DNA from: Candidatus Nitrospira nitrificans
GTDB taxonomy: Bacteria; Nitrospirota; Nitrospiria; Nitrospirales; Nitrospiraceae
Length of the DNA: 64,000 nt
Assembly: GCF_001458775.1 (NCBI RefSeq)
Contig: NZ_CZPZ01000001.1
Location: 124,001 to 188,000 of the forward strand
Direction of reading: 5' to 3'
A model generated the notes under the pieces. The model had not been told where the DNA came from. It saw only the letters and a program-made list of their open reading frames with translations, and made no database searches. The position numbers and the translations under genes are program-made. This document shows positions 59,422 through 63,291 of the stretch, piece by piece (position 1 is the first letter of the stretch; each line of letters begins with the position of its first letter).

Positions 59422-60561
59422 CTAAATGATTTCGAGGTTTGCTTGCAGCGCTCCTGCCGACCGCAGAGCCGAGAGGATTGCGACAAGGTCGCGCGGCGTC
59501 ACCCCCACTGCATTGAGAGCCCGCACGACCTCTCCCAATGTCACCGTCTCATCCACGACCAAAAGCCGCGATTCTTGCTCCTTGACCTCCGTCTGCACAT
59601 CGGGGGTCACGGTCGTCTGGCCTGCGGACGAACCGATAAGCGGCGCCGGCGGCTGCGACACGTTCAACGTGTTTTTCACTGAGATCGTGAGATTGCCATG
59701 AGAAATCGCGCACGTGGAGATCCGCACATGTTCTCCCAGCACGACTGTGCCGGTCCGTTCATTGACGACGACCTTGGCGATTGAATCGACGGTCACGTCA
59801 AGCCCCTCGATCGAGGCGATATATTCGACGACACGGCCTTGAAACACCTGAGGAATCGTCGCCTTCACAGATCCGGCATTCACGGCCGACGCGCTGCCTT
59901 TCCCGAACGCGCTCTCGATGGCCTCGGCGGTCCGGATGGCGGTCGTAAAATCAGGTTGCCGGAGAAGGACGGAGACTGTTTCCCATGAGTCGATATTGAC
60001 GGGAAGCTCCTTTTCGATGATGGCCCCCCCGGGAATCACGCCGGCCGATTGATGATTCTTCACCACCGTCGCTCCGCCGGCCCCTCCCGTCCCGCCGAGA
60101 AAACCACCGATCGAGACGGGTCCCTGCGCGACGGCAAAGACCTGCTGGTTGGCCGCCTTTAACGGTGTGAGCAAGAGCGTCCCGCCTTGCAGGCTTTTGG
60201 CGTTCGCCATCGACGAGACCACGGCGTCCAGCGTCATCCCCGGTTTCGAGAACGGAGGAAGCTTGGCGGTCACCATCACCGAAGCGATGTTTCTCGTCAA
60301 TAACTGGATGGGATCGATCACCAGATTGACGCCCATCTTGTTCAACATGGACATCATCGCCTGAATCGTGAACTGTCCACCGATGACTCGGTCCCCGGTG
60401 CTGTCCAGCCCGACCACCAAACCGTACCCGAGCAACTGGTTTTCTCGCACTCCTTCGATCACACCGATGTCCTTGATCCTCACCGCATCGGCGCCGGAGG
60501 GCATCAAGAGACCACCCGTCAGTATCAGTGCACTGACTATGGAGATACTTCGTTTGACCAT
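59422..60561 (-). CDS. flgI: Flagellar P-ring protein FlgI
   Basis: The 379-residue protein has an N-terminal signal peptide (VKRSISIVSALILTGGLLMPSGADA, cut before VRIKDIG) and the family motifs GVRENQLLGYGLVVGLDSTGDRV, NVLNKMGVNL-like MLNKMGVNL, GTLLLTPLKAANQQVFAVAQGPV, VVNERTGTVVLGEHVRIS and the C-terminal LNAVGVTPRDLVAILSALRSAGALQANLEII. It forms the P ring around the rod in peptidoglycan. ATG 60561 gives a normal signal peptide; the frame is open further upstream without one. Confidence 0.95.
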   Translation of the reverse strand: MVKRSISIVSALILTGGLLMPSGADAVRIKDIGVIEGVRENQLLGYGLVVGLDSTGDRVIGGQFTIQAMMSMLNKMGVNLVIDPIQLLTRNIASVMVTAKLPPFSKPGMTLDAVVSSMANAKSLQGGTLLLTPLKAANQQVFAVAQGPVSIGGFLGGTGGAGGATVVKNHQSAGVIPGGAIIEKELPVNIDSWETVSVLLRQPDFTTAIRTAEAIESAFGKGSASAVNAGSVKATIPQVFQGRVVEYIASIEGLDVTVDSIAKVVVNERTGTVVLGEHVRISTCAISHGNLTISVKNTLNVSQPPAPLIGSSAGQTTVTPDVQTEVKEQESRLLVVDETVTLGEVVRALNAVGVTPRDLVAILSALRSAGALQANLEII

Positions 60562-60572
60562 GCGCGGGACAC

Positions 60573-60848
60573 CTATCCTCTCCACAAACGTTTGGGAACG
60601 GAAACCGGCGACCGGCGACCAAGTATGATGCGCGACAGCCATCCTTGCGTAGAGGCGACTTCATTGTTCGAGTCGTGAGCCGCCTCTTCAAGCGCGTGGA
60701 ATCGTGCCCTGCTCCCGAAGGTGGGAGGATCGAAGTCAGCGCGCCGCACCACCCCGCTCTGCACCATCATCTGCAGCGTACGCAGATTCATGGGGCGCCG
60801 CTTGAGCATGCTCCGCTGAATCGGTTTACGTCTCGTCGCAACCGTCAT
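60573..60848 (-). CDS. Small basic protein between flgH and flgI, unknown
   Basis: The 91-residue, Arg/Lys-rich protein has a GGAGGGTT ribosome site at exactly the right spacing for ATG 60848. It is wedged between flgH (11 bp gap) and flgI (11 bp gap), so expression as part of the operon is very likely. It shows ATRRKPIQRSMLKRRPMNLRTLQMMVQSG and a C-terminal STQGWLSRIILGRRSP. There is no signal peptide and no recognised family. It may be a short flagellar accessory protein of this lineage. Confidence 0.7.
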   Translation of the reverse strand: MTVATRRKPIQRSMLKRRPMNLRTLQMMVQSGVVRRADFDPPTFGSRARFHALEEAAHDSNNEVASTQGWLSRIILGRRSPVSVPKRLWRG

Positions 60849-60859
60849 AACCCTCCTTC

Positions 60860-61687
60860 TCAGAACGGATAGACCCAATCGAGAATGCGAATGAACCACC
60901 CGGGGCGCTGCACATCGTCGAGCACCCCGAGACCTGAATATTCGATTCTGGCGTCGGCGATGGCGGATGACAGCACCGTATTCTTGGTGTCGACATCGAC
61001 TCGACGCACGATGCCACCGATGCTCATCAACTGTTTTTCACTGTTGACCGTCACTTCACGACGTCCTTCGATGCGAAGATCGCCGTTCGGAAGCACTTCC
61101 GTCACGATCGTGGAGATGGTCCCCGTCAACGTCCCTTCGCGGCTGGTCGCGCCCTTTCCGCTGAATTTATTGGTGGCGCTTGCGTCGATCCCCATCCCTC
61201 GTCTCGTTTCATCGCTGAATCGTATGCCCGGTATTCCGATGTAGCCCATCGCGCTGCCGACCAGACTGTTTTTAATCGATGACTCACGCTGAGCCGCGGT
61301 ATCGGCGGACTTCGACCCTTTATGGTTTTCGATGATCTTGACGGTGAGAATGTCGCCGATGCGCATCGCGCGAAGATCCTCATAGAGATAGGATCGCCCA
61401 TTGTCTTCCTGCCACAGCGATCCGACCGTCTTGGGTGGAGGCAATGGGGGCACGACGATCTTGCTTGAAACATTCGGCGGACTCGAACATGCCTGAAGCA
61501 GCAGCACGACACCAACTAGCTGCACAGGATATGCAAAAAGGCTCCTGATCTCACTCGCCCAGCCCCGGCGCGCCAAGACGCGCCGTTCCGCGGGCAAGGC
61601 CGCAGCGAAAGAAGGGGCGCGGCGTACGCTTCGGTACGTTGAGCCTCTGAGCGATGCGAGAACGCCGCTGGCAGGCTTTTTCAGCAT
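60860..61687 (-). CDS. flgH: Flagellar L-ring lipoprotein FlgH with a repeat-derived N-terminal extension
   Basis: The FlgH core is clear: SLWQEDNGRSYLYEDLRAMRIGDILTVKIIENHKGSKSADT, GTISTIVTEVLPNGDLRIEGRREVTVNSEKQLMSIGGIVRRVDVD and C-terminal ARIEYSGLGVLDDVQRPGWFIRILDWVYPF. The lipobox is LLLQAC, with Cys67 in the reading from ATG 61687. About 50 residues precede the hydrophobic segment (LKKPASGVLASLRGSTYRS, ALPAERRVLARRGW); they come from an inserted repeat-like element. The ATG lies 4 bp after flgA behind GGTGGAG. The real secretion signal may start at an internal non-ATG codon close to residue 53. Confidence 0.92.
   Translation of the reverse strand: MLKKPASGVLASLRGSTYRSVRRAPSFAAALPAERRVLARRGWASEIRSLFAYPVQLVGVVLLLQACSSPPNVSSKIVVPPLPPPKTVGSLWQEDNGRSYLYEDLRAMRIGDILTVKIIENHKGSKSADTAAQRESSIKNSLVGSAMGYIGIPGIRFSDETRRGMGIDASATNKFSGKGATSREGTLTGTISTIVTEVLPNGDLRIEGRREVTVNSEKQLMSIGGIVRRVDVDTKNTVLSSAIADARIEYSGLGVLDDVQRPGWFIRILDWVYPF
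61531..61687. repeat. Repeat-like element at the 5' end of flgH (family C)
   Basis: The segment begins ATGCAAAAAGGCTCCTG and ends GGCAGGCTTTTTCAGCA, imperfectly complementary termini (GGCAGGC-TTTTTCAGCA against TGCAAAAAGGCTCCTG). Inside are further GC-rich palindromes, such as GGCGCGCCAAGACGCGCC (about 61566-61583). The stretch is read as the FlgH N-terminal extension on the minus strand. Confidence 0.55.
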
Positions 61688-61691
61688 CGTG

Positions 61692-62489
61692 TTAGAACTC
61701 CACCTCAACGAGACTCGGAGCCACCACTTTGGCTCTCAGCTCCCTTCCGGAATCCAGATTGGCGACCATGACGGTCTGTCCGACCTGTCCGCTCGCCTTC
61801 GTCACGCCATAGGCTCGAATCGACAGCCCCCCGCGCCGCGCTTCGATCAGGACTCGATCACCCTTTTTGACCACCAACGGAAGCTTCACAAAGGCTGGGC
61901 GCAGCGGGGTATCCGGCGGAAGAGGCCGTGAGGCGCTCTTCCCGATGACCTCTGCCGGATCAGTCATGAAGGGATGGTTCAGCTGATGAACCCGCAGTCC
62001 GATGGTCTTGAGATCGCCCATGTCAATCAGTTCATCGGTCTTCAGAAAGCGGGTGACGACGACCGCGTCGATCATCGCCGCGATATCGGCCACAACCCGG
62101 ATCGTTTTCCGAGCTTTCCCATGTGCCACTGCCTCCACATGAAACATCCGCCGTCCTAGACCTTCTTCCATGGAGTTGGGAGCGACGTGCAACTCCACCG
62201 TCCCGCCGGGGATCATCACCGGCTCAGCGGGCTCCAACACTGTCACCTGCACCGTCTTCACCTTGCGACCCCACTCGTCCGTCAAGTATGTCTGAACGGC
62301 CTTTCGAATCAGATCGGGAGTGACCTCGCTGACAGTCGCTCGATCCGCAACGGTGTCGGCTGCCCGATGGATTGAGCCTCGGGGCGACGACGCGATCGAC
62401 CGGGACTCGCTCGACCCCGCGCTTGACGTCATGACATCGAAGCCTCCGGGTGAAAGGAGCACGATCAGCATCAGCCAGAATCTGGACAT
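61692..62489 (-). CDS. flgA: Flagellar P-ring assembly chaperone FlgA
   Basis: The 265-residue FlgA has an N-terminal hydrophobic secretion signal (SRFWLMLIVLLSPGGFDVMTSSA). An SAF-type domain lies from about 145 (VVVTRFLKTDELIDMGDLKTIGLRVHQLNHPFMTDPAEVIGKSASRPLPPDTPLRPAFVKLPLVVKKGDRVLI) with the C-terminal VGQTVMVANLDSGRELRAKVVAPSLVEVEF. It helps FlgI form the P ring. ATG 62489 has AAGGAGCGTCTC. It lies between flgG and flgH. Confidence 0.93.
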   Translation of the reverse strand: MSRFWLMLIVLLSPGGFDVMTSSAGSSESRSIASSPRGSIHRAADTVADRATVSEVTPDLIRKAVQTYLTDEWGRKVKTVQVTVLEPAEPVMIPGGTVELHVAPNSMEEGLGRRMFHVEAVAHGKARKTIRVVADIAAMIDAVVVTRFLKTDELIDMGDLKTIGLRVHQLNHPFMTDPAEVIGKSASRPLPPDTPLRPAFVKLPLVVKKGDRVLIEARRGGLSIRAYGVTKASGQVGQTVMVANLDSGRELRAKVVAPSLVEVEF

Positions 62490-62499
62490 GAGACGCTCC

Positions 62500-63291
62500 T
62501 TATCGTCTGAGATTGTTCGCAATGGCCATCATTTCGTCGGAAGCCTGAATCGTCTTGGAGTTGATCTCGTAACTCCGCTGCGCAATGATCATGTTGACCA
62601 TTTCTTCAGCGAGGTTGACATTCGAACTCTCCAAGAAACCCTGCTGGATCGTTCCGAATCCGGTCGTGAAGCCGCCTGTCCCTTGCGTCGGAGGCCCGGA
62701 TGCAAAACTGTCGATAAAGAGATTGCCTCCCATCGCGACCAAGCCGGAAGGATTGTCGAACCGTGTCAATTGGATTTGCCCCACTTGCGACGCCTGTGTG
62801 ACGCCCGGCAGCAACACCGAGACCGTGCCGTCCTGCCCGATATCCATCTTGAGCGCGCCGGACGGGATCGTAATCACGGGATTGAGGAGATCGCCGTCGC
62901 CGGTCACGAGATTACCCACATTGTCACGCTTAAACGAGCCGTTTCGGGTATACATGATCGTCCCATCGGGGCGGGACACTTGGAAAAATCCAGGCCCATC
63001 GATCGCCAGGTCTGTTTCGTTGTTCGTTTGACGCATGTTCCCTTGCAACCATTCTTTAGCGACCGTCGTCGGTCGAACCCCGGCTCCTACCTGGATGCCG
63101 ACCGGAAACACTCCCACGTTGGATGCGTTCGTGCCCGGGAGTCGTTGAATCTGATACAGCAGGTCCGCAAACTCAGCCCGGCTGCGTTTGAAGGAGTTGG
63201 TGTTGACGTTGGCAAGGTTGTGCGCGACGGTGTCGACGTTGATCTGCTGAGCCGTCATTCCGGTCGCCGCGGTCCACATGGCTCTGATCAT
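62500..63291 (-). CDS. flgG: Distal rod protein FlgG
   Basis: The 263-residue FlgG has the canonical ends MIRAMWTAATGMTAQQINVDTVAHNLANVNTNSFKRSRAEFADLLYQ and SNVNLAEEMVNMIIAQRSYEINSKTIQASDEMMAIANNLRR, and the middle GPGFFQVSRPDGTIMYTRNGSFKRDNVGNLVTGDGDLL. FlgG forms the distal rod. ATG 63291 has an AGGAGGATTTCC site. It is followed by flgA. Confidence 0.97.
   Translation of the reverse strand: MIRAMWTAATGMTAQQINVDTVAHNLANVNTNSFKRSRAEFADLLYQIQRLPGTNASNVGVFPVGIQVGAGVRPTTVAKEWLQGNMRQTNNETDLAIDGPGFFQVSRPDGTIMYTRNGSFKRDNVGNLVTGDGDLLNPVITIPSGALKMDIGQDGTVSVLLPGVTQASQVGQIQLTRFDNPSGLVAMGGNLFIDSFASGPPTQGTGGFTTGFGTIQQGFLESSNVNLAEEMVNMIIAQRSYEINSKTIQASDEMMAIANNLRR

Follow-up and report, generated by a model that had tools for sequence, protein, structure and literature searches.

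How FlgH of Candidatus Nitrospira nitrificans obtained its start codon and its N-terminus was the question raised by the flgA–flgH junction of the window, the whole stretch of 64,000 nucleotides that was analysed. The gene was identified by a domain search (PF02107, E 3.5e-57, residues 87–274) and contained a lipobox cysteine, Cys67, behind a hydrophobic segment; export, lipidation, and assembly into the L ring are predicted from these features. One in-frame ATG (61687–61685) was located upstream of the lipobox, 66 codons from Cys67, as the first-pass annotation had noticed. The other in-frame starts were a TTG at 61708, two TTG codons 36 and 29 codons from the cysteine, and two GTG codons 12 and 6 codons from it. 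The junction was composed of the following features.

61692–62522, minus strand: flgA (PF13144, PF08666), the gene upstream of flgH, with the insertion at its stop codon
61698–61705, minus strand: AGGTGGAG, candidate ribosome-binding site for the ATG at 61687, in the last flgA codons, with AGGTG 13 nt before the ATG
61692–61694, minus strand: flgA stop codon TAA, inside the CTAR target; the element runs from the next base on
61506–61691, minus strand: all element-derived DNA (head and tail remnant), FlgH residues 1–60, delimited by matches to dispersed copies
61525–61691, minus strand: element head, long form, left and right arms, 167 bp
61676–61691, minus strand: left terminal repeat CACGATGCTGAAAAAG (consensus CAGGATGCTGAAAAAG), containing the ATG at 61687–61685
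61574–61576, minus strand: internal TTG in the element, rival start, 29 codons before the cysteine, with a weak GGA match 10 nt ahead
61525–61540, minus strand: right end of the head, CTTTTTGCATATCCTG
61506–61524, minus strand: tail remnant of 19 nt, TGCAGCTAGTTGGTGTCGT, which begins the hydrophobic segment and matches the tails of L042 and L191
61489–61487, minus strand: Cys67 of the FlgH lipobox LLLQAC
60860–61687, minus strand: flgH, flagellar L-ring lipoprotein (open reading frame and PF02107), read from the ATG within the terminal repeat of the element
59422–60642: FlgI, the other neighbour of FlgH

The N-terminus of FlgH had been attributed by the first-pass annotation to an inserted repeat, and the attribution was borne out: of the 66 residues that precede the lipobox cysteine, residues 1–60 (MLKKPASGVL...AYPVQLVGV) were element-derived. 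The repeat had been described as a palindromic element of 157 bp. The repeat itself was real, but it covered about 186 bp (61506–61691), and the palindrome was decayed in the window copy, whose predicted RNA fold was no better than those of shuffled sequences (z −0.69). Likewise, the extension had been placed at about 50 residues before the hydrophobic segment and in fact reached about 60, including QLVGV, the first residues of that segment. The 19-nt tail remnant was 92% identical over 25 nt to the tail of L042 and matched that of L191 at 14 of 14 nt, both in the same genome. VLLLQA, ahead of Cys67, is the sole stretch there that looks like old flgH sequence. When compared with complete copies, the window copy had a longer right half and lacked the tail end. 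It was not bordered by a clean duplication; CTAA was present on the left, and the CTAG on the right was within tail sequence common to L042.

The annotation had also called for a genome-wide search, with absence elsewhere to count against its reading, and the element was abundant elsewhere in the genome (4.12 Mb, 36 contigs; G000). A 201-bp junction query gave at least 48 matches at E ≤ 1e-3, with 40 of the 94 first-look candidates scored, and the terminal 16-mer gave 100 matches at no more than one mismatch, whereas the reversed control gave 2. A complete copy on contig C2 (L042, 2465–2662) was 198 bp long with CTAT on both sides, and was composed of a hairpin head and a tail closing with the second terminal repeat. 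The element was bounded by terminal inverted repeats, CAGGATGCTGAAAAAG on the left and CAGnCTGCnGAAAAA where the tail ends. In an intact copy, the head folded as one long hairpin (z −6.15 against shuffled sequences), and pairs of element ends, read from the positions of the terminal 16-mer, were 76–254 bp apart. The target duplication was the 4-bp CTAN. An ATG was located inside the terminal repeat, four bases in, and the consensus head was stop-free in the frame of this ATG. The head peptide was present in 69 of 76 genomes of the genus (E ≤ 1e-7), and the head DNA in 74 of 245 genomes sampled across the phylum (E ≤ 1e-10); counted from the list of matches, 27 of these 74 belonged to the genus, 34 to the family outside the genus, 11 more to the order, and 2 more to the class. 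When searched against Rfam, the window gave no match. Copies in the same genome (L049, L052, L058, L067, and others) carried different tails and also different inner inserts, such as CGCCTTGCCGAAGCGGCTTCGCGAGGCAGG, and the element family is therefore a mosaic. In a selection test on ungapped copies (n = 40), 86 synonymous, 140 non-synonymous, and 2 stop changes were counted against 72.0, 151.3, and 4.7 expected, an excess of synonymous changes that was weak and non-decisive in copies taken partly from protein searches, which biases toward such an excess; no claim is therefore made that the element peptide is kept for function.

Complete copies look like a MITE, being shorter than about 300 bp, free of a transposase frame, bounded by terminal inverted repeats and a target duplication, and dispersed in many copies. 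G018 contained an insertion sequence of the IS5 family (L247; PF05598, PF01609) that ended in CAGTCTGCTGAAAAAC and was flanked by CTAG on each side; its ends were related to those of the element, and the two had the target in common. Relatives of the L247 transposase were found in 18 of 76 genomes at E ≤ 1e-40, and none was found in the genome of the window at this threshold. Mobilisation of the element by an IS5-type transposase is likely but unproven. The element was not filed as an IS5 member because the 198-bp unit carried no IS5-type transposase frame; in further contrast to the IS5 family, its head was unrelated to the body of L247 as far as the two were compared. Insertion sequences with a DUF4096 domain were considered as parents and rejected, their loci being without these ends save for a small element nearby in L242. 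At two places in G018 (L243 and L244), a transposase-like frame, which we take to resemble IS110 types, lay within a small element ended by CAGGCTGCGGAAAAA, with about 1.33 kb between the ends.

A position directly after a stop triplet recurred at other copies. Searched with no more than two mismatches, stretches of the same genome contained 127 element ends (58 left, 53 right, and 16 other). A stop triplet was immediately outside 28 of the 58 left ends, TAA or TAG in 25 and TGA in 3. In 20 of the 28, this stop closed an open frame 60 or more codons long, compared with 22% of the 1177 YTAR sites of that DNA, figures that describe the neighbourhood of the element and not the genome, since the stretches were picked around element matches. 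A YTAR target, together with the survival of insertions that spared the upstream gene, would explain the stop-codon position.

When the junction was compared among relatives, the window and up to 124 loci yielded 74 distinct junctions that were kept. The element was matched at E ≤ 1e-5 in 13 of the 74 loci, at 14 places in 365,489 bp, nine of them in the flgA–flgH junction and five elsewhere, and all 14 were oriented along the direction of transcription. In the window and in relatives, the element began at the base after the flgA stop. The insert of L143 was bordered by CTAG on each side, and its relative L034 had a single CTAG. In the outer group (CG24 and kin), element sequence was present in L159, L160, and L164, only its ends in L162 and L165, and none in the junctions of L158, L161, L163, and L152. 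L162 and L165 contained an extra element copy on the side toward flgI, close to where flgH ends, at +640 relative to the start of the FlgH core.

The end variant CACGATG was common to the copies of the window, G001, G010, and G077 at the same place and was rare, with 7 occurrences of this pattern in 76 genomes; the pairing right end CATCGTG was present in three of the four. The four copies therefore probably descend from one insertion, to judge from these shared ends, and the idea that each junction copy was a separate insertion was withdrawn. The G001 copy was 96% identical to the consensus, and a single insertion would need either repair of this copy from others or slow change. At least three junction insertions would then be needed (the window clade, L143, and the outer group), and perhaps a fourth in N. 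moscoviensis (L033). In a tree of flgH sites (66 rows), the state of the element changed at least nine times and a single clade was rejected (p-AU 1.3e-59), with gain and loss of the element indistinguishable. L166, L155, L172, L171, L165, L169, L027, and L117 were left out of this tree as short, gapped, or on very long branches; a first tree that included L165 and L169 was distorted.

The start of FlgH was examined at the same junctions, of which 72 of 74 were scored for an ATG after the flgA stop. Such an ATG, 4 or 5 nt past the stop, was present in 20 of the 72. It was in frame with FlgH and followed by a stop-free frame in 18 of the 20, namely 8 of 10 rows with the element and all ten others, the latter being six distinct lengths and not ten independent cases. 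Relatives without the repeat had FlgH leaders of 34 to 71 residues starting 4–5 nt past the flgA stop, and long FlgH leaders are therefore ordinary here. Of 19 rows scanned, 10, including that of the window, had AGGTG or GGAG 10–13 nt ahead of this ATG. In close relatives, substitutions in the leader at the three codon positions numbered 12, 9, and 8 (L022/L088) and 19, 16, and 21 (L091/L096), respectively, whereas those in the FlgH core were mostly at the third position (4, 4, and 39; 8, 4, and 57). This even spread means that the leader is without amino-acid constraint that would back its translation. An almost free sequence in a frame that stays open fits a disposable signal-peptide n-region. 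Judged from the sequence comparisons, the start is most likely the ATG at 61687, coupled to flgA. In L094 and L143, the ATG past the flgA stop was out of frame or followed by a stop, and the element is therefore not always the supplier of the flgH start. In L158, L159, and L161, of outer Nitrospira lineages, an in-frame GTG that may serve as an overlapping start of flgH was located in the last flgA codons, 6 nt downstream of GGAG or AGGAG.

The first-pass annotation had left two choices, a tolerated extension or an internal start, and the 18 junctions and the leader lengths of the relatives lean to the former. It had further supposed that an extension conserved as protein in relatives would speak against insertion. 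FlgH of L010 (G001) and L013 (G010) did share the start of the window, MLKK(S/P)ASGVLASL, but as shared repeat DNA at the same site and not as a conserved protein. Three points had escaped the annotation: the placement of the repeat directly at the flgA stop codon, the ATG within the terminal repeat, and the like cases in other genes of the genus.

Similar fusions were also found in other genes, where a cytochrome, a NuoM-like protein, and an HlyD-type lipoprotein each look to have lost the native start to element sequence. In a cytochrome c554-like protein (PF13435) of G012 and G018 (L075 and L076), the element ran directly into the signal-peptide core, and there was no ATG between the two apart from the one inside the element. 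In G032 (L274), the native start MKPRPVM persisted downstream of the element, and L077 and L279 retained native-region sequence with internal ATGs. The NuoM-like protein (PF00361) of G019 (L253, C12, around 2473) had about 36 native residues swapped for element residues by an in-frame fusion at IDF, with the upstream stop TGA unchanged ahead of the fusion; five relatives at 95–96% identity began with MALWLLILIPILAAP or near it. Its function is doubtful because the first membrane segment was lost. The HlyD-type lipoprotein (PF13437) at L042, in the same genome as the window, contained the intact 198-bp element within its signal-peptide codons, between CTAT duplications. Its flanks joined across the element gave MQILYVVLALTVGSVLPGC, compared with NTILYLTLALTVSGVLTGC in the relative L305. 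The right end of this element read AGGAG-TAAA-ATG, which placed MNFSAVC ahead of YVVLALTV. Two cases were weaker: a PHP-like protein of G030 (L271), with PF02811 below the cut-off and no ATG between the element and a signal-like segment, and a peptidase S58 of G044 (L270), with an internal ATG. CorA (L272) and several other frames were dropped as fusions, the frame having an internal ATG or not being a recognised gene.

We consider it probable that a MITE-like element was inserted at the flgA stop and that FlgH is made from the element ATG with an element-encoded leader. A palindromic MITE-like element, probably moved once by an IS5-type transposase, would have entered the CTAR of the flgA stop codon, and its left terminal repeat would have set an ATG 4 nt past this stop. 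Ribosomes ending flgA, together with the purine-rich end of flgA, may start translation at this ATG, from which the head is stop-free in frame. A later deletion would have removed what remained of the element tail together with most of the former leader of flgH, and would have fused the element frame to the last signal-peptide residues. As a result, FlgH would now carry an arginine-rich leader of about 60 element-encoded residues. A long leader may be tolerated because it is cut off at Cys67 and because its sequence is nearly unconstrained in relatives.

Most of the other genomes were draft or metagenome assemblies, which was counted against this explanation, as was the internal TTG at 61576, which would yield a textbook signal peptide. 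Translation from this TTG, giving a short signal peptide (MARRGWASEIRSLFAYPVQLVGVVLLLQAC), or from the GTG at 61525 is the foremost alternative, though an unlikely one. The TTG has its GGA match 10 nt upstream, the GTG is 12 codons from the cysteine, L143, L164, L160, L162, and L165 retain the old start downstream of element sequence, and the absence of amino-acid constraint on the leader also suits an internal start. However, the ribosome-binding match is weak or missing at these two codons, and the ATG at 61687 is placed like that of the element-free relatives. With an internal start, the 5′ part of the element would be an mRNA leader only, and the N-terminus would still be element-made.

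Insertion of the element might instead have wrecked the export signal and left the gene decaying, in keeping with the loss of the native leader and with the unusual length and arginine richness of the present one (11 Lys or Arg and 2 Asp or Glu in residues 1–50). We regard this as improbable, since the frame, lipobox, and core are intact, with the core 95% identical to that of L106, since L010 and L013 likewise keep the element-derived start in frame, and since the adjoining flgA and flgI frames are open. A repeat collapsed onto the junction during assembly would be conceivable in a genome of 36 contigs with a repeated element, but is very improbable: the copy is interior to a 476-kb contig and has its own variants, and the assemblies of G001, G010, and G077 contain element sequence with the rare CACGATG end at the same place.

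The preferred reading, insertion with use of the element ATG, was compared with known systems, as described in excerpts of the cited papers. Rickettsia palindromic elements (RPE) measure about 105–150 bp and have an open frame that is joined in frame to conserved genes (PMC2229807, PMC10969869). Like them in behaviour, the Nitrospira element is palindromic, and its open frame is joined in frame to several genes that are unrelated to one another; in those excerpts, RPE fusions are within Rickettsia genes, whereas the Nitrospira element is at the stop codon and gives a start codon and a leader. Frames of the YPAL and ERIC MITEs are also fused to genes, and the signal peptide of Yersinia YPO1552 is partly element-made (PMC2229807). 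YPO1552 is described there as a putative new exported protein, whereas the Nitrospira proteins are conserved ones, among them a core lipoprotein of the flagellum. Unlike YPAL and ERIC as excerpted, the Nitrospira element has its ATG within the terminal repeat and a target that overlaps stop codons. QMITE2 of Coxiella, with about 50 copies, supplies residues at protein ends, for example 33 C-terminal residues of EnhC (PMC5896051); the cases given in the excerpt are C-terminal or internal, in contrast to the N-terminal Nitrospira element. The IS5 duplication is given as the 4-bp YTAR (PMC10359306). REP/RAYT systems combine REPs of 20–40 bp, tagged by GTAG or CGTC, with a RAYT transposase (PMC3733652); the Nitrospira unit is 198 bp long and has other ends.

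Among open-licence papers, a full-text search for the 16-mer and a search of titles and abstract beginnings for Nitrospira with MITE or repeat topics gave no paper on the Nitrospira element. Fusions of MITEs with genes are already known, and the capture of a start at stop codons is new. The stop-codon address, the terminal-repeat ATG, the second start at the end of one tail, and the repeated use of a flagellar junction were not met in the open-licence literature, as far as its excerpts go.

A tentative and more general suggestion, which we hold to be possible rather than likely, is that the element is a mobile translation-start cassette, with a YTAR/stop-codon target, an ATG four bases on, a stop-free head, and a tail type with AGGAG-N4-ATG. 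If so, insertions in operons would keep translation going with little polarity, and small deletions would then give the next gene new N-termini, chiefly signal-peptide leaders. In Nitrospira, proteins would regularly change through element-made N-termini. As a natural system open to testing, the junction shows a mobile repeat that would provide a conserved bacterial protein with its start codon and export leader, and the unfilled, filled, and fused stages can be seen across related species. Such repeats can mislead the calling of start sites and the prediction of signal peptides in Nitrospira. Furthermore, a stop-codon target with a built-in ATG suggests a route by which MITEs may reshape N-termini repeatedly.
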